Source: Streptomyces sp. NBC_00094 (GTDB lineage Bacteria > Actinomycetota > Actinomycetes > Streptomycetales > Streptomycetaceae). Taken from it: DNA of 64,000 nucleotides. How positions within the stretch are numbered: the stretch's first letter is position 1; each line of letters opens with the position of its first letter. The stretch spans positions 8,003,501 through 8,067,500 of the forward strand of contig NZ_JAPEMB010000001.1 of NCBI RefSeq assembly GCF_026343125.1, read 5' to 3'. The translations under genes and the position numbers were made by a program. Positions 13,502 to 22,434 of this stretch are shown in pieces. The notes below the pieces were generated by a model that ran no database searches, had not been told where the DNA came from, and saw only the letters and a list, made by a program, of their open reading frames with translations.

Positions 13502-14158
13502 TCAGTGACCCGGGACGACGAGACCGGATTCGTAGGCGACGATGACGAGTTGGGCCCGGTCGCGTGCGGCGAGTTTGCCCATGATGCGGCTGACATGGGT
13601 CTTCGCCGTGAGGGGCGAGAGGCCGAGCGTGTCGGCGATCTCGGTGTTGTTCAGGCCGCGGGCGACGAGTGCGAGGACCTGACGCTCGCGGTCCGTGAGC
13701 TCTTCCGGGCCGCCGGTCTGCGGGGTCTGGGGGAGTGCGAGGGTACGGGCGATCAGCCGTGCCGTCGGACCGGGGGACAGGAGGGCTTCCCCTGCCGCCA
13801 CGGTGCGTATCGCGGTGAGGAGTTCGGCGGGCCGGATGTCCTTGACGACGAACCCTGACGCGCCCGCGCGCAGCGCCTCCACCACGTGCTCGTCCGTGTC
13901 GTACGTGGTGAGGACCAGCACCTTCACTCCGGCGAGGTCCTCGTCGGCGGCGATGAGACGGGTCGCGCCGATCCCGTCGAGCTCGGGCATCCGGAGGTCC
14001 ATGACCACGAGGTCCGCCCGTGTCGTACGGGCGAGTTCGACGGCTTCCCTGCCGTTGGCCGCCTCCCCGACGACCTGCATGTCGGGTGCCGTGTCGACGA
14101 GCATCGCGAACGACGCGCGGACGAGGTTCTGGTCGTCCGCGAGCAGGACCCGGATCAC
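13502..14158 (-). CDS. NarL/LuxR-family response regulator (218 aa)
   Basis: Receiver domain residues 1-120: IRVLLADDQNLVR (acidic pair), phospho-acceptor Asp in LVVMDLRMPELDG, switch Thr in VLVLTTYDTDEHV, and Lys in FVVKDIRP. LuxR-type helix-turn-helix 150-212: LTDRERQVLALVARGLNNTE, IADTLGLSPLTAKTHVSRIM. Starts with ATGA overlap of the kinase gene, so the pair is coupled. Probable target is the operon itself including the upstream MMPL transporter. Confidence 0.95.
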   Translation of the reverse strand: MIRVLLADDQNLVRASFAMLVDTAPDMQVVGEAANGREAVELARTTRADLVVMDLRMPELDGIGATRLIAADEDLAGVKVLVLTTYDTDEHVVEALRAGASGFVVKDIRPAELLTAIRTVAAGEALLSPGPTARLIARTLALPQTPQTGGPEELTDRERQVLALVARGLNNTEIADTLGLSPLTAKTHVSRIMGKLAARDRAQLVIVAYESGLVVPGH

Positions 14159-15306
14159 GCGGTCGCCTCTTTCACCGTGAGCGGCAGCGCCGCTCTGACT
14201 TCGAAGCCCCCGCCGTCACGCGGGCCCGCGTCCAGTGTGCCGCCCACGCTCCGGGCCCGCTCCCGCATTCCCAGGATCCCGTATCCGGAACCACCGGTGC
14301 CGACGGCAGCGGTGCCCCGGTCGGTCACCCGTACCGTCAGCACTCGCTCGTGGAGGCCGACATCGACCCGTACGTCGGCAGCGGGACCTCCATGACGTAC
14401 GGCGTTGGTCAGGGACTCCTGCACGATCCGGTACGCCGCCGCGCCCACCGCCGCCGGGACCTTCGTCTGCCCCGTCCGCAGGGTGAGGTCCGCGCCGGAG
14501 GACCGTACGAGGTCGGGCAGCGAGGCCAGGTCCGGCAGCGGGCCCTCGGGGGCGGCCCGCAACACGTCCAGCGTCGTGCGCACTTCGGCCCGCGCATCCC
14601 GGCAGGTCTCGGCTATCTGGTCGAGCGCCTGGACGAGGGCTCGACGGTCGAGACGGTCCGGATCGGCGACCAGGACGTGCGCGGCGACGGACGTCTGCAC
14701 ACCGATGAGGGTGATGGAGTGCGCGAGGAGATCGTGCAGGTCCCTCGCGATACGCAGCCGCTCCTCGGTGACTCGACGCTCCGCCTCGTGCCGCCCCCGC
14801 TCGACGACACCCGCGACGAGCTGGCGGTAGAGGCGGATGCTGGCGCCGAAGACCAGCATGGCGATCACCCAGCCCGAGACCCTCAACAGCTCGACCATCT
14901 CGTGCGGGTTGACGAAGAGCTGCATGGTGAGGGTGACGGAGGTGACCGAGAGGCCCACGATCACGGTGTTCCGGGGCCGGCTCGTGGAGGCCACGGAGTA
15001 CAGCGCGGTCATCGAGGCCGGGATCGGCGCGAGATGCATGTAGTCGAGCGCGTGGTACGGGGCGACGCAGGCCACCACGGCGAGGAGCACCGGCAGAGGG
15101 GCCTTGCGCCGCCAGGCGAGCGGGACATGTGCGGCGAGCAGCAGCGCCCAGCCGAGCAGGTCGGGGCGGCGGCCGTCGTCGACGGTGAGGGCGAGCGCGA
15201 TCGCGACGACCGCGAAGACGGCGGCGGCCGTCGCGTCGCACCGCACCGGGTACGGCGCGGCCTGCGGGTCGCGGGTGAGGGCCGCTGCGAAGTCCATGGT
15301 GTCCAT
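14155..15306 (-). CDS. Two-component sensor histidine kinase, HisKA_3 type (383 aa)
   Basis: Four to five membrane helices at residues 20-150, then the dimerisation helix with phospho-His in RIARDLHDLLAHSITLIGVQ (about residue 195) and the ATPase domain with N-box AAYRIVQESLTNAVRHGG and G-box GYGILGMRERARSVGGTLDA. Lacks a large extracellular sensor, as in DesK/NarL-family Streptomyces kinases. Coupled to the response regulator downstream and preceded by the MMPL gene 57 bases upstream. Confidence 0.94.
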   Translation of the reverse strand: MDTMDFAAALTRDPQAAPYPVRCDATAAAVFAVVAIALALTVDDGRRPDLLGWALLLAAHVPLAWRRKAPLPVLLAVVACVAPYHALDYMHLAPIPASMTALYSVASTSRPRNTVIVGLSVTSVTLTMQLFVNPHEMVELLRVSGWVIAMLVFGASIRLYRQLVAGVVERGRHEAERRVTEERLRIARDLHDLLAHSITLIGVQTSVAAHVLVADPDRLDRRALVQALDQIAETCRDARAEVRTTLDVLRAAPEGPLPDLASLPDLVRSSGADLTLRTGQTKVPAAVGAAAYRIVQESLTNAVRHGGPAADVRVDVGLHERVLTVRVTDRGTAAVGTGGSGYGILGMRERARSVGGTLDAGPRDGGGFEVRAALPLTVKEATA

Positions 15307-15362
15307 CCTCCCTGCGGGCGGGGGCTCCTGACAGTCCGGGATGCCCCCGACCCGCCCCTGAT

Positions 15363-17504
15363 TCAGACCCGTACGGGCGTCGACTCGGACCCGGATCCGG
15401 TCCCGGACTCAGACGCAGACCCGGACTCAGACCGGGACTCAACGCCGGCCCCAGCCCCATCACCCGACGCAGCCCCGGCCCCGGCCACACTCTCGGCCCC
15501 GTCCTGCTTGGCCAGCGGCCCCGGCCACCACACCGTGCGACCGAGCAGCACGCTCGCGCTCGTCACGAGATACGTACGAACCAGGAAGGTGTCGAGCAGG
15601 ACACCGATCGCGATGACGAATCCGAGCTCCGCGAGCTGCACCATCGGCATGTTGACGAGGACCGCGAAGGTGGCGGCGAGGACGAGCCCGGCCGAGGCGA
15701 TCACCCCACCGGTCGTGCGCAGCGCTGTCAGGGCCGCGGTGCCCGTTGCCGTACCGTTCAGGCATTCCTCGCGCATCCGGTGCATCAGGAAGATGCCGTA
15801 GTCGACGCCGAGGGCGACGAGGAACACGAAGGAGAGCAGGGCCAGGCCCGGGTCGGTGCCCTCGAATCCGAAGAGCGCCTCGAAGACGAGACCGCCGATG
15901 CCGAGGGCCGCACCCCAGACGGCGACGACCGCGGCGACCAGGAGCAGCGGCGCGACGAGGCTGCGCAACAGCAGGGCCAGCACGATCAGTACGACGGCCA
16001 GGACGAGCGGGATGACGAGGGTGCGGTCACGCGCGCTGGTATCGGCCATGTCGAGTTGCTCGGCGCTGGGCCCGCCGACGTACACGCCGTCTCCGAGCGC
16101 GGAACGCAGCTCTCTGATGGTCGCGGTCTCGCCGGTGGACTGCGGCGGGTGGGAGGCGAGGACGGAGATCTCGGTCCAGCCGTCGCCGGTGCGGCCGAGT
16201 TCGGCCTTGGCGACGCCCTCGGTCCGCCGCGCGGTCCGCAGGGCGCTGGACGAGTCGGCTGCCGGGGCGATGACGGTGATGGGCTGGGTACCCGTCTGCG
16301 GGTAGGCGGTGGCCAGCGTCTTCATGGCCGCGACGGCCTCGGGGGTGGTGCTGAAGGAGTCCTCCTGCTTGAGAGCCCCGGGCAGGTTCAGCGCCCCGAG
16401 GGCGAGAGCGGCCAGAGCGGCGGCGCCCGCGATCAGGACGGCGAGGGGACGCCGCCCGGCGGAGGAGCCCATGGCGGCGAACAGGGAACGGCGCGCGGCC
16501 TTCGGCTTGCTCCCGTACGCCGGGATCAGCGGCCAGAACACGCGCCGGCCGAGGACGACGAGAAGGGCGGGGAGCAGCGTCATCATCGCGACGAGTGCGC
16601 ACACCACGCCGACGGCTGCGGTGGGTCCCATGCCCCGGCTGCTGTTCATGTCGGCGGCGAGCAGGCAGAGCATGCCGAGGGCCACGGTCCCGCAGGAGGC
16701 CAGGACGGCGGGCCCGCAGCCGCGCAGGGCGGCGGTCATGGCGTCGTACGGGCGCGGGGTACGGCGCAGTTCCTCGCGGTAGCGGGAGACGAGGAGCAGC
16801 GCGTAGTCGGTGCCCGCGCCGAAGACGAGGATCGTCATCACGCCCGTGCTCTGGCCGGAGACGCTGATGTCGAAGCCCTGGTGGAGCGCGTAGGTGACGG
16901 CCATGGAGAGGTAGTCGGCGACACCGGCGACGAGCAGCGGGACGAGCCAGAGGAAGGGGCTGCGGTAGATGACGATCAGGAGGATCGCGACGACCGCGAC
17001 GGTCGTGTAGAGGAGCGGGCCGTCGAGGGAGGCGTAGACCTCGCCGGCGTCGGTGGCGAGCGCGCCGGGGCCGCCGACCTCACCGCTCACACGCTCGCGG
17101 ACGGCGTGGACGAACGCGTCCCTTGCCGCCTCGTCCGTACCGGGTTCGGTGCTGGACACGGCGTACAGCAGAGTGGTGCCGTCCTCGGAGGGGACGGGCC
17201 GCGGGGGCGAAGCGAGCGGGTGCTCGGCGGCGACCTGCGCGACCTCCCGCGCGGCGGTGGCCTCGTCGGCGGGGGTCAGCCCGCCGTCGCGGTGGTAGAC
17301 GAGCACGAGGTCGGTGGAGTCTCCACCGGGCATCCGCTCGGTGATCTCCGCGACCTGCGTCGAGTCGGCGCTCGCGGGCAGGTAGTCGACGGCGCGGTCA
17401 CGCTGGACGTCGCCGAGCTTTCCGGCGAGGGGTGCGGCGAGGGCGATCACGATCACCCACAGGGCCAGCACCCCCCAGCCGACGATTCTCCTACGGCCCT
17501 CCAT
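15363..17504 (-). CDS. MMPL/RND-family transporter (713 aa)
   Basis: Two repeats of one periplasmic loop plus about six membrane helices: residues 1-350 and 350-680. FGAGTDYALLLVSRYREELR and VALGVDYGIFLMHRMREECL are the paired MMPL helix-4 motifs with the conserved Asp-Tyr proton-relay positions. The extreme C-terminus is a Ser/Glu/Gly low-complexity tail (ESRSESGSASESGTGSGSES) built from phased six-base units. First gene of an apparent operon with the kinase-regulator pair, so probably a regulated lipid or drug exporter. Confidence 0.93.
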   Translation of the reverse strand: MEGRRRIVGWGVLALWVIVIALAAPLAGKLGDVQRDRAVDYLPASADSTQVAEITERMPGGDSTDLVLVYHRDGGLTPADEATAAREVAQVAAEHPLASPPRPVPSEDGTTLLYAVSSTEPGTDEAARDAFVHAVRERVSGEVGGPGALATDAGEVYASLDGPLLYTTVAVVAILLIVIYRSPFLWLVPLLVAGVADYLSMAVTYALHQGFDISVSGQSTGVMTILVFGAGTDYALLLVSRYREELRRTPRPYDAMTAALRGCGPAVLASCGTVALGMLCLLAADMNSSRGMGPTAAVGVVCALVAMMTLLPALLVVLGRRVFWPLIPAYGSKPKAARRSLFAAMGSSAGRRPLAVLIAGAAALAALALGALNLPGALKQEDSFSTTPEAVAAMKTLATAYPQTGTQPITVIAPAADSSSALRTARRTEGVAKAELGRTGDGWTEISVLASHPPQSTGETATIRELRSALGDGVYVGGPSAEQLDMADTSARDRTLVIPLVLAVVLIVLALLLRSLVAPLLLVAAVVAVWGAALGIGGLVFEALFGFEGTDPGLALLSFVFLVALGVDYGIFLMHRMREECLNGTATGTAALTALRTTGGVIASAGLVLAATFAVLVNMPMVQLAELGFVIAIGVLLDTFLVRTYLVTSASVLLGRTVWWPGPLAKQDGAESVAGAGAASGDGAGAGVESRSESGSASESGTGSGSESTPVRV

Positions 17505-17728
17505 CGGGGCCTCCCTCCATCGGTCCTCTTCGGGGTCGATTCCAGACTCCCGTCGCCCGGAGGGGGATTCGTCGCGCTGGAGGCCGAGGTGAGGGCTACT
17601 GCCGACGGCGGTGCCGGCCGGCGATTACTCCCGGGGGAGTACGGGAGCGGTGCCGCGTGAAGGGGGATGGACCATGACGTCGGACCGTGACGTGCTGTGG
17701 CGCCGCGCTCCACCGGTCGGCGCGGGCG
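17505..17728. other. Intergenic region upstream of the MMPL operon
   Basis: The gap lies between the MMPL start and the end of the HutD-like gene, both on the minus strand. It includes CCGGCGATTACTCCCGGG at about 17617-17634, unusually AT-containing for its surroundings, which may mark the promoter. No gene is supported here. Confidence 0.3.
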
Positions 17729-18568: not shown

Positions 18569-18599
18569 TAGGGTATGGGGCATGGAGGTGAGCTCTGTG
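18569..18599 (+). promoter_or_regulatory. Promoter-like hexamer and two alternative starts for tap
   Basis: A -10-like TAGGGT (18569-18574) lies in an unusually AT-rich 60-bp stretch. Transcription from it would begin about 18581, right at the ATG at 18582, allowing leaderless translation. The GTG at 18597 has an excellent SD (GGAGGTGA, 18584-18591). Both starts are in the same frame, five codons apart. No matching -35 is obvious. Confidence 0.4.
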
Positions 18600-20855
18600 C
18601 CTACTGAGGACGAGCTGTTCAGTGCGGTGGATGCGCTGTTGGGCCAGGTCGCTCAGGACGACCTTCCGGCGCCCGAGGAACGCAAGCGCCTACGGGAGGC
18701 CGCGGGGCTGAGCCAGGAGCAGCTCGCGAAGGCGTTGAAGAGCCGGCGCGAGACCATCGGGAACTGGGAGTCAGGCGTCACGGAGCCGCGGCCGCCGAAA
18801 CGCGCCGCCTATGCCCGGCTCCTGGAAGGGCTCGCCGCACGCTTCCCCGCCGCGATCGACGCGGCCGAGGTCCCGCCACCGGCATTCCCGGAAGCGCCCA
18901 CCGGCACGGCCACGACCCAGCCCCCGGCACAGGCCCCCACCCCCACCCCCGCCGCGGCTCCCACCCCCACAGCCGCCCCACCCCCCGCCGTCGAACCGTT
19001 CCAGCACCCCGCGGACTCCGTACCCCCCTCCCGCCCCCCTGCGCACAACCCCAGCCCGCAGGCCTCGGCGCGGCGGCCGGTCGCGAAGAAGACGGCGTCC
19101 CGAAAGCCCCCGACCGCCGCCGCGGACCCCCGCTTCGAGCACGGGCCACTGGCCGTCGTCGACGTCGAGGACGGCGTGGTCTCCGCGTACTGCGTCGGCG
19201 GCCTCGTCCTCGACGTCCCCGCCAAGTCCCTGCCGGCCCTGATCGAGTGGACGCTGACCGAGGCCAGGCTCGGCCAAGCCCGCCTGCACCGCAACGGCCG
19301 CGACGCCGACCCGGTCCTGGTGCTCACGCAGGCAGCGCTGGAGCGCTACGGCCTGCCCGCCACCCTGTCGGACGAGGAGCGACGCGCCGGACGGCTCCCG
19401 GACGCCCACAAGGTGGTCAAGCAGCTCACCAAGGCCGACTGGAAGCTGACCCAGCGCGGATTCGGCGCCTGGGCGAGGATCTACCGCCCGGCCGAAGGGG
19501 CGAAGCGCCACTGCGTCCAGCTGTGCATCCCGTCCTGGAACGCTCTGGACGTCCGCGAGTGGGACCGCAAGAGCGACCCGCAGCTGCCGACGATGCACCC
19601 GGCGGACCTCGCCCGCTACCTGGGTACGTACGCGGACAGGGTGATGACGCCGCGCGGCACCACGGCGGTCACCGGCCTGGAACTGATGGTCGCGCTGCGC
19701 CCGCCGACCCGCGCGGAGAAGGACGGAACGACCGGCGAGTTCAAGCGGGCGTTCAACACCGACGCGCTCACCGCGGTGTACGACGTGGTGGAGTGCGAGG
19801 TCCCCGACGAACACCCCCTCCTCAAAGGCAGGTTCGCCCGGCACCACCTGAGGACCCCGGCCGAGATGCTGATGGAGGAGCCGTACGACTGGTGCCGGCA
19901 GCTGACCGACGAGGAGTGCATGAACCCGTACCTGGTCGCGGTCGACATCAACATGTCGTTCGCCGCGGCCGCGAACGGGCTCACCGTCGGACTGGACGGC
20001 CCGACCCACCTCACCGGCAACCCGGCCTTCGACCCGACGCTGCCCGGCTCGTGGCTGGTCGACCTCTCCCACGTCGACCTCTCGCGCGTGGACGTCGGCG
20101 GCCGTACGGTCGACGGCGCCCGGCTCCCGAGCCCGTTCACGCCCAAGGGCGACCACCCGACCGGGCCGGCCTGGTACGCCACCCCCACCGTCCAGTACGC
20201 GGTCGAGCTCGGCTTCGGCGTCGCGCCGATCGAGGCGTACGTGCGCACCCGGACCGGCCGCTACCTGGACGGCTGGTACAAGCACCTGCGCGACGCGTAC
20301 GTGGCGACGATGGCCGACCTCGACGTCACCACCGACCTGTCCGGGAGCGAGTTCCTGGAGGCGATGGCCGACTCCCGTCGGGTCGACCCGACGATGGCGC
20401 TGCTGGTGACCGCGATCAAGGCGACCGCGAAGGGCGGCATCGGCAAGCTGCGCCAGCGCAACCGCGGACAGGTCCCGTACTACGAGCCGTGGCCGGCCCT
20501 GGCCCGGGAGACGTGGCGCCCCGACATCCGGGCCGCCGTGCTGGCGAACCAGCGGATCGGCCTGCACCGCAAGCTGATGAAGACGGCGGCCGCCGCCGAC
20601 CTGTACCCGGTCGCGATCGGCACCGACGCCATCGTGTACCCCTCACCCGGCCCGTCCCCGCTGGACGTCCTGCCGCACACCCCGGAGGGCAAGCCCGCAC
20701 CGGGCACCTTCCGGCTCGGGGTGTCGCCGGGCATGGTCAAGCACCAGGGCACGCAGACCGTGCTGTGGGCCGAGGAGCAGTTCGAGGAGCACGGCGGCGT
20801 GTTCAACGTCGCCAACCTCATCAAGACGGACCCGGCTGCCGGAGAAGGGGAGTAA
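18597..20855 (+). CDS. tap: Telomere-associated protein Tap (752 aa)
   Basis: N-terminal XRE helix-turn-helix at residues about 30-75 (LREAAGLSQEQLAKALKSRR, ETIGNWESG), a Pro/Ala/Thr-rich linker (95-170), then a large conserved domain (AVVDVEDGVVSAYCVGGLVL; NPYLVAVDINMSFAAAANGL; GPAWYATPTVQYAVELGFGV). This matches Streptomyces Tap, which binds the 3' overhang of replicating linear ends and recruits the terminal protein. The tpg gene follows 6 bases after the stop. The GTG with the SD is taken as start; the ATG at 18582 would add five residues. No transposase or plasmid genes flank it. Confidence 0.92.
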   Translation: MPTEDELFSAVDALLGQVAQDDLPAPEERKRLREAAGLSQEQLAKALKSRRETIGNWESGVTEPRPPKRAAYARLLEGLAARFPAAIDAAEVPPPAFPEAPTGTATTQPPAQAPTPTPAAAPTPTAAPPPAVEPFQHPADSVPPSRPPAHNPSPQASARRPVAKKTASRKPPTAAADPRFEHGPLAVVDVEDGVVSAYCVGGLVLDVPAKSLPALIEWTLTEARLGQARLHRNGRDADPVLVLTQAALERYGLPATLSDEERRAGRLPDAHKVVKQLTKADWKLTQRGFGAWARIYRPAEGAKRHCVQLCIPSWNALDVREWDRKSDPQLPTMHPADLARYLGTYADRVMTPRGTTAVTGLELMVALRPPTRAEKDGTTGEFKRAFNTDALTAVYDVVECEVPDEHPLLKGRFARHHLRTPAEMLMEEPYDWCRQLTDEECMNPYLVAVDINMSFAAAANGLTVGLDGPTHLTGNPAFDPTLPGSWLVDLSHVDLSRVDVGGRTVDGARLPSPFTPKGDHPTGPAWYATPTVQYAVELGFGVAPIEAYVRTRTGRYLDGWYKHLRDAYVATMADLDVTTDLSGSEFLEAMADSRRVDPTMALLVTAIKATAKGGIGKLRQRNRGQVPYYEPWPALARETWRPDIRAAVLANQRIGLHRKLMKTAAAADLYPVAIGTDAIVYPSPGPSPLDVLPHTPEGKPAPGTFRLGVSPGMVKHQGTQTVLWAEEQFEEHGGVFNVANLIKTDPAAGEGE

Positions 20856-20861
20856 CGGACC

Positions 20862-21422
20862 ATGGCGGCGGACTCGTTCGGCGACAGCCTGGACCGCGCA
20901 CTGGAGGGGGCGTTCACCCGCCCGGCCCCCAAGGGCGCGCAGGCGCAGATGAAGTACCTGGTCAAGCAGCTCAAGGGCACCAAGGCCGTCGCCCAGGCGC
21001 TCGGGGTGTCGCAGCGCACGGTGGAGCGGTACGTCGCCGGCAAGCTGAAGCGGCCCCGCCAGGAGCTCCGCGAGCGCATGGAGCGCGAGGTCAGGAAGCG
21101 GTGGCAGCCGCAGATCCGCGCGAAGGCCCGGAAGAAGGCGGCGTCCACGGACGGCCTGGTGGTCTCCACCCGAGCCCGCTTCGGCTTCACCGCCGCTCCG
21201 GGCACGACGGACGACGCCCGGATCCGCGACATCACCCAGGCCCTGCCGCCCCAGTGGGCGGACCGCCTGTACACGGCCCGCGAGCAGGGAGCCGACGAAC
21301 GCCGGCTCCAGCGCATCGCCGCGGAGGGCCTGGCGGAGATGTACTTCCGGGCCGACAACACGCGGGCGCACGGCCTGGGCGTGGAGTTCACCGACGTACA
21401 GCACATCGAGATCGAGCTGTAG
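20862..21422 (+). CDS. tpg: Telomere terminal protein Tpg (186 aa)
   Basis: Terminal protein covalently capping 5' ends of linear Streptomyces replicons and priming end-patching. Sequence shows the typical start FTRPAPKGAQAQMKYLVKQL, a helix-turn-helix (KAVAQALGVSQRTVERYVAG), a basic region (KRWQPQIRAKARKKA) and the conserved RARFGFTAAPGTTDDARIRD, where a Thr near 115 corresponds to the known DNA-linked residue of Tpg. C-terminus GLGVEFTDVQHIEIEL is also typical. Length equals the family (about 185). Cotranscribed with tap. Confidence 0.93.
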   Translation: MAADSFGDSLDRALEGAFTRPAPKGAQAQMKYLVKQLKGTKAVAQALGVSQRTVERYVAGKLKRPRQELRERMEREVRKRWQPQIRAKARKKAASTDGLVVSTRARFGFTAAPGTTDDARIRDITQALPPQWADRLYTAREQGADERRLQRIAAEGLAEMYFRADNTRAHGLGVEFTDVQHIEIEL

Positions 21423-21732
21423 TCACGGCGACGGCCGGACAAGGCTCCGGTCGGCGAGGGAGTCACGGCTACCAGGACCGATCCGCGTCATTGTGCGGGG
21501 CGTGAGGTTTGCCGCCGGTAGTTCGGGCACTGGGGCGCAGGTCCTAGGCCCGGAGGCGGACCGTCGCCCGCCCTTCGGTGCCCTCGTGGCCGAACGGTCC
21601 GTCAACCTCTCGGCCCGATGGCTCCGGCGTCACCACGGTCAGTAGGGGGCGGCACATCCCTCCCGCGCCGCGCGCGCGACCGAATCAGTGATCGACGACA
21701 GTCCCCGTGGCTGTCCCGCTAGGCTCTGGTCG
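21423..21732. other. Gap downstream of tpg, no gene seen
   Basis: About 310 bases without a supported gene. A CCGGACAAGGCTCCGG near-palindrome (about 21434-21449) follows the tpg stop and may terminate the tap-tpg transcript. No telomere-like palindrome series or long repeat is visible. Confidence 0.35.
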
Positions 21733-22434
21733 GTGACGAACGACGTGACCTTGATGCCGTTACAGCGGAGCGAGCAGGCAGTTCTCCAGGCGATCCGTGA
21801 ACACGGTGGCCGACCCGTCAGCGTGGCCGGCCTCGCGCGGGCGACGGGGTACAGCCCGGCCGCGGTCACCCGGGCCCGCCGGTTGCTGCGTGACCGCGGC
21901 CTGTTGGAGTACGAGTCGGGGAACGGGCACACGCCCACCCGCTACCGACTCCCCGGGCAGGCGCCCACCCGCACGGGGCCGCCCCAGCCGCCCGCTCGAA
22001 CGGACCACGAACCGGTGATGCTCGGCGGGTACCACCTCGGCCGCACGGTTTCCTCAGGAACCCTTCACCTTCTCGACGCCGACGGCGAGCTCCCCGAGGT
22101 GCCGGACCGGTTCCGCTGCGACACCGTGTGCCGGCCGACACCGGAGACCGCGCCCACGATGGAGATCGCACGCGGCGACGTCGACTGGGACCGGCTGTGC
22201 CGCTCCTGTCTGACCGCGATCGGCGCACCGCCCGGAACCGGTCCGACGAGCCGTGTCGAGACGACCTGGCAGGTTCAGGTGTGGCACCCCCAGACCCATC
22301 AGTGGCTGCCGATCGGCCGTCCGCACGACAACGAACCGGCCGCCCGTGCCGCTCGCAGGGAACGGGAGGTCCAACACGGCGAACTCCGTTTCCGGCTCGT
22401 CGTGCGCACAACCTCGGAGACCGCGGTTCCCTGA
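21733..22434 (+). CDS. MarR-like winged-helix protein with Cys-x2-Cys C-terminal part; contains a TTA codon (233 aa)
   Basis: Residues about 10-75 form a winged helix: SEQAVLQAIREHGGRPVSVA, GLARATGYSPAAVTRARRLL, RDRGLLEYESGNGHTPTRYR. After a Pro-rich linker, FRCDTVCRPTP and DRLCRSCLTAIG suggest a four-Cys metal site. The tenth codon of this start is TTA (21760-21762), the rare leucine codon that makes translation depend on bldA tRNA in Streptomyces. GTG 21733 is chosen; a GTG at 21688 would also include the TTA. Function unknown; probably a transcription regulator. Confidence 0.7.
   Translation: MTNDVTLMPLQRSEQAVLQAIREHGGRPVSVAGLARATGYSPAAVTRARRLLRDRGLLEYESGNGHTPTRYRLPGQAPTRTGPPQPPARTDHEPVMLGGYHLGRTVSSGTLHLLDADGELPEVPDRFRCDTVCRPTPETAPTMEIARGDVDWDRLCRSCLTAIGAPPGTGPTSRVETTWQVQVWHPQTHQWLPIGRPHDNEPAARAARREREVQHGELRFRLVVRTTSETAVP

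Follow-up and report, generated by a model that had tools for sequence, protein, structure and literature searches.

The 64,000-nucleotide stretch of the Streptomyces genome analysed here, referred to as the window, very probably carries an intact, single-copy tap-tpg operon of the archetypal type, situated in the right arm of a chromosome that is linear. The identification was based on matches of both translated genes to their protein families, a search of the whole genome for further copies, the position of the pair on the assembly and the structure of the contig ends.

Identification of the tap and tpg genes

The two genes were found on the same strand and adjacent to each other, at the position given in the first-pass annotation (18597-21422), together with a translation signal in front of tap:

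18584..18591, + strand: Shine-Dalgarno-like GGAGGTGA, 5' of the tap GTG start, from the sequence
18597..20855, + strand: tap, telomere-associated protein, 752 amino acids (NCBIfam NF047542)
20862..21422, + strand: tpg, terminal protein, 186 amino acids (NCBIfam NF047541)

A check of the open reading frames and their translations gave an uninterrupted tap frame from the GTG at 18597 to the stop at 20855. This start was preferred over an ATG at 18582 because GGAGGTGA adjoins the GTG and because the corresponding codon is the start in most full-length Tap homologs. The predicted protein scored 1048.5 bits against the NCBIfam equivalog NF047542 (cut-off 600) and covered all 695 model positions (1-695), confirming that tap is full length, as had been claimed. 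Its layout comprises an N-terminal XRE-type helix-turn-helix (HTH) domain (residues 30-68), a low-complexity linker and a conserved core (approximately residues 177-752). A conserved HTH had been attributed to both proteins from the sequence alone; this was correct for Tap, whose N-terminal domain passes Pfam HTH_3 (37.8 bits, cut-off 23), whereas Tpg gave only a weak match to HTH_23 (21.7 bits, under the cut-off of 24.6). Divergent Tap relatives with about 30% identity that score below the NCBIfam cut-off were seen in other Streptomycetaceae (loci L296, L298, L309 and L319) and are useful for building deeper profiles.

The tpg gene begins with an ATG at 20862, six bases 3' of tap, and its frame is open throughout. 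The polypeptide of 186 amino acids, in a family with a size of about 185, scored 284.7 bits against the equivalog NF047541 (cut-off 90), in agreement with the description of this gene, too, as full length. The motif AAPGTTDDAR, already noticed in the first reading of the sequence, was located at Tpg residues 111-120. In Tpg of S. lividans, DNA is attached at T114 and D115 is required (PMC3572947). Alignment identified T116-D117 of the window Tpg, within TTDDAR, as the equivalents of these residues, and a threonine or serine with an acidic residue is kept in nearly all full-length Tpg homologs collected. T116 is therefore predicted to be the priming residue, followed by D117.

Copy number and chromosomal location

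The window represents positions 8,003,501-8,067,500 of the chromosomal contig, C1, which is 8,133,934 bases (8.13 Mb) in size. The end of tpg lies 109,012 bases (109 kb) from the assembled right end of C1, or approximately 167 kb from the right end if a second contig of 57.6 kb, C2, belongs there. This agrees with the earlier prediction, which put the pair on a linear plasmid or no more than a few hundred kb from an end. The expectation that chromosomal pairs usually reside in the arms was supported by a comparison with eleven further Streptomyces chromosomes that are assembled as one contig and match tap or tpg. Nine of them have a copy 13-175 kb from an end: 13 kb in G187, 18 kb in G005, 23 kb in G108, 26 kb in G060, 33 kb in G107, 94 kb in G012, 161 kb in G009, 167 kb in G013 (a broken copy) and 175 kb in G074. 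The exceptions were G125, with a partial DNA match 1.57 Mb inside, and G007, with two mid-contig copies that perhaps reflect a rotated assembly.

Searches of the whole genome revealed one Tpg only and, with the family model, one full Tap; the second Tap match was an N-terminal fragment of the HTH-bearing part with 78 bits, far below the NF047542 cut-off of 600. A second functional tap-tpg combined with decay of the window pair, which had been named as a finding that would speak against the original proposal, was looked for and not found, the single Tpg and the single full Tap both being intact. Among 246 genomes sampled from the order of the source strain, 150 contained a Tap scoring over the cut-off, and the tap-tpg of this window is an ordinary member of a known, widespread system.

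Relatives of the pair and its genomic context

The Tpg of the window is 80-88% identical to a group of proteins encoded on linear plasmids and some chromosomes, and shares approximately 61% identity with the other main group, which is chromosomal and has a motif that fits the published residues of S. lividans. The pair resembles the archetypal Tap-Tpg of S. lividans and S. coelicolor in gene order, gene sizes, the N-terminal HTH of Tap, the Thr-Asp site of Tpg and location in the chromosome arm, but at this lower level of identity its Tpg has the motif GFTAAPGTTDDARIRDITQAL, whereas the type that fits S. lividans has GYTAPIGSTDQDRIRHLTVAL. The same tap-tpg unit, with an 85% identical Tpg, is present on a linear plasmid of S. 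platensis NBC_00999 (NZ_CP108719.1), which differs in carrying a second tpg-like gene close by and in its flanks, which are unrelated to those of the window pair. Across the plasmids, the two-gene unit alone is shared with the window and the flanks are not. The Tac-Tpc system of SCP1 and the GtpB-GtpA system of S. griseus likewise consist of a terminal protein and a telomere-associated partner, but are by published description unrelated or distant in sequence (PMC4513846, PMC7205883).

Assigning a telomere class from the Tpg group was considered and rejected: plasmids with this group of Tpg have archetypal, ATAGCGC or TTCGGG first palindromes, and the telomere of the strain can therefore not be predicted from its Tpg. 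The ends of contig C1 of G107 (L120 and L121), which are complete, start with CCATAGCGCTTCGCGCTATG and not with archetypal palindromes; this genome has an intact pair whose Tpg falls in the same group.

An open reading frame downstream of tpg (21688-22434), predicted to encode a MarR/IclR-like HTH domain, was ruled out as a third gene of the operon, being absent from other tap-tpg loci. On the other side of the pair, positions 13502-17650 of the window contain an MMPL transporter and two-component system cassette. Several other Streptomyces genomes have conserved this cassette, with no tap-tpg adjoining it, and its homology ends at approximately 17,650.

Contig ends and chromosome topology

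All four ends of C1 and C2 stop within subtelomeric helicase genes, three of them at the same codon. The left end of C1, the right end of C1 (as reverse complement) and the left end of C2 have a common start in the helicase-associated C-terminus (HRPVPRG) and read inward. The right end of C2 represents the upstream part of such a helicase, corresponding to residues 1 to approximately 832 of an 899-amino-acid pSLE2 relative, with frame breaks, and in many linear plasmids of Streptomyces the same helicase is encoded within a few kb of the ends. This gene at the C2 right end (L010:~14850-17625), a subtelomeric helicase of the DEAD/ResIII type, contains a premature stop in addition to the frame breaks and is cut at the contig end; it is either a decayed internal copy or affected by consensus errors in a collapsed repeat. 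The last bases of C2 abut the left end of C1 exactly and in frame, whereas joining them to the left end of C2 or to the right end of C1 is one base out of frame.

The right end of C1 (L005, reverse complement) and the left end of C2 (L003:1-3133) are identical over 3133 bases, which suggests a terminal inverted repeat or an end exchange; the shared stretch stops just past an IS transposase gene. The simplest reading is that the assembler collapsed the telomere-proximal parts of the helicase genes and that C2 and C1 together form one linear chromosome with a terminal inverted repeat of at least 3.1 kb. C2 may instead be joined to the right end of C1 or be a separate replicon; a scan of the larger C2 open reading frames gave no match to a partition or replication family, and C2 DNA matched plasmids in patches only. 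Two other genes were noticed near the ends of C1. The one near the right end (L005:9888-16397) encodes a protein of 2169 amino acids that has RHS repeats and a pretoxin-HINT domain and resembles polymorphic toxins in style; the one near the left end (L002:5584-8184) encodes a lanthionine synthetase, RamC/LanC-like, that includes a kinase domain.

The archetypal telomere pattern was not found in the assembly with up to two mismatches allowed, as would be expected if the chromosome ends are missing from it. The claim that the pair marks a linear replicon was supported by the location close to an end and by the helicase genes at the contig ends. As the assembly ends short of any telomere, linearity is strongly inferred rather than shown, the telomeres having presumably dropped out during assembly.

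Alternative interpretations

The presence of tap-tpg is by itself no proof of linearity; such a pair can persist on a circularised chromosome, and circularisation is a common event in Streptomyces. A circularised chromosome, with tap-tpg as a remnant or serving a plasmid only, would be in keeping with an assembly lacking telomeres, and circularisation has been documented upon loss of tap-tpg (PMC8743545), but here tap and tpg are both intact and conserved. In addition, each end of C1 holds the 3' remainder of a helicase gene that faces inward, and simple closure into a circle would therefore bring two half-genes together head to head. Nor can C1, either alone or with C2, be circularised by completing these genes; a circular assembly had been named as the result that would contradict the proposal, and joining the gene halves at the contig ends gives no circle. 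We consider circularity highly improbable. It is also unlikely, although less so, that the chromosome is maintained by another terminal-protein system, of the Tac-Tpc or GtpA-GtpB type, while the window pair serves something else. In some strains, systems of this kind occur alongside tap-tpg (PMC7205883), and the Tpg group, with at least three first palindromes among its plasmids, does not fix the telomere class; against this, the genome is without a second Tpg or a second full Tap.

A question of origin rather than of function is raised by the affinity of Tpg, whose nearest relatives are plasmid copies and the mixed plasmid and chromosome group, the other main group, which is chromosomal, being more distant. 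A plasmid-type tap-tpg could have entered the arm when ends were exchanged with a linear plasmid, the borrowed system now maintaining the chromosome ends, and the identity of the C1 right and C2 left ends up to a point past the IS transposase is what a recent terminal exchange predicts. However, the same Tpg group also occurs on other chromosomes (for example, in G107 and G187), the similarity to plasmids is confined to the two genes and does not extend to the flanks, and an end exchange does not directly involve the tap-tpg locus. We regard a plasmid origin as a real possibility, though one somewhat short of probable. The preferred reading of the locus is that of an archetypal tap-tpg operon in the arm of a linear chromosome.

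Proposed function of Tap and Tpg

The biochemistry of the window proteins is inferred from published work on relatives. Replication leaves 3' overhangs, Tap binds the folded overhang and Tpg and adds nucleotides to the latter, and a Tpg threonine primes synthesis (PMC4513846). Priming by Tpg (PMC3572947) and Tap-dependent synthesis (PMC4513846) have both been published, Tap and Tpg alone yield 13 nucleotides in vitro (PMC4513846), and loss of the sole tap-tpg results in circularisation of the chromosome (PMC8743545, PMC8743542). By analogy, the folded 3' overhang present at each chromosome end after replication would be bound by Tap, which would recruit Tpg. The first nucleotide would be added to a Tpg threonine, predicted to be T116, short Tpg-primed DNA synthesis would patch the chromosome end, and Tpg would remain attached to the 5' end and cap it. 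Both chromosome ends, and any linear plasmid whose telomeres are compatible, should be served by this pair because the genome contains no other; for the same reason, the pair should be essential if the chromosome is to stay linear.

Possible resemblance of Tap to protein-primed polymerases

A study from 2015 reported that Tap polymerises yet is without a polymerase motif, and described it as representing a new polymerase class (PMC4513846). One reading, which we put forward tentatively and at somewhat less than even confidence, is that Tap could be related, though highly diverged and without an exonuclease, to the protein-primed family B DNA polymerases of the phi29/PRD1 type, fused to an XRE HTH. 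Segments resembling the phi29-type motifs A, B and C were noticed by eye in an alignment of the Tap core (window 19125-20852), in this order, and motif A is closer in the Tap relatives of about 30% identity (VDVCASYLSVTDSLRLPIGP compared with DVNSLYPAQMYSRLLPYGEP in phi29). When the Tap core was compared by hhalign with an alignment of diverse polymerases, Tap D450, K608, G616-K617 and D677 fell on phi29 D249, K383, the Gly-Lys of motif B and D458, respectively. The phi29 numbers D249, K383 and D458 follow the literature numbering, four above that of the alignment itself. D450, K608, G616, K617 and D677 are invariant in a set of 92 Tap sequences. The three conserved D/K/D matches occurred in 1 of 1000 shuffles, in a motif test that was post hoc, the resemblance having already been seen by eye.

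The hhalign match of the Tap core to the polymerases was not significant (probability about 0.5%), approximately 4% of shuffles scoring as high, HMMER scores between Tap and polymerases were no better than those of reversed or shuffled controls, and Pfam, a PDB sequence search and profile comparison gave no significant polymerase match for Tap. Tap has KxxxKGGIGK where the strict motif B is KxxxNSxYG, and only one Asp where the strict motif C is DTDS. Two AlphaFold2 models (pLDDT 42 and 35) were unusable for judging a palm-finger-thumb fold, and no Tap relatives were found in scans of viral contigs. Tap and the phi29/PRD1-type polymerases thus share synthesis on a protein primer and, weakly, the order and register of conserved residues; they differ in that the motif B Asn and Tyr are replaced by Lys and Ile in Tap, the first Asp of DTDS is missing, and Tap has an HTH. 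Within the open-access literature, which was the scope of the search, no paper proposing Tap as a family B polymerase was found. Because of the insignificant profile scores, the departures in motifs B and C, the unusable models and the post hoc motif test, we offer the polymerase reading as a hypothesis.

If this were true, it would account for the 13-nucleotide product of Tap and Tpg alone, D450 and D677 would be predicted to bind metal and K608 would be the predicted nucleotide-binding lysine (numbering of the window Tap), such that polymerase activity without a polymerase motif, a puzzle in the literature, would become testable by point mutants. For the organism itself, the tap-tpg pair explains how the strain can keep linear chromosome ends.
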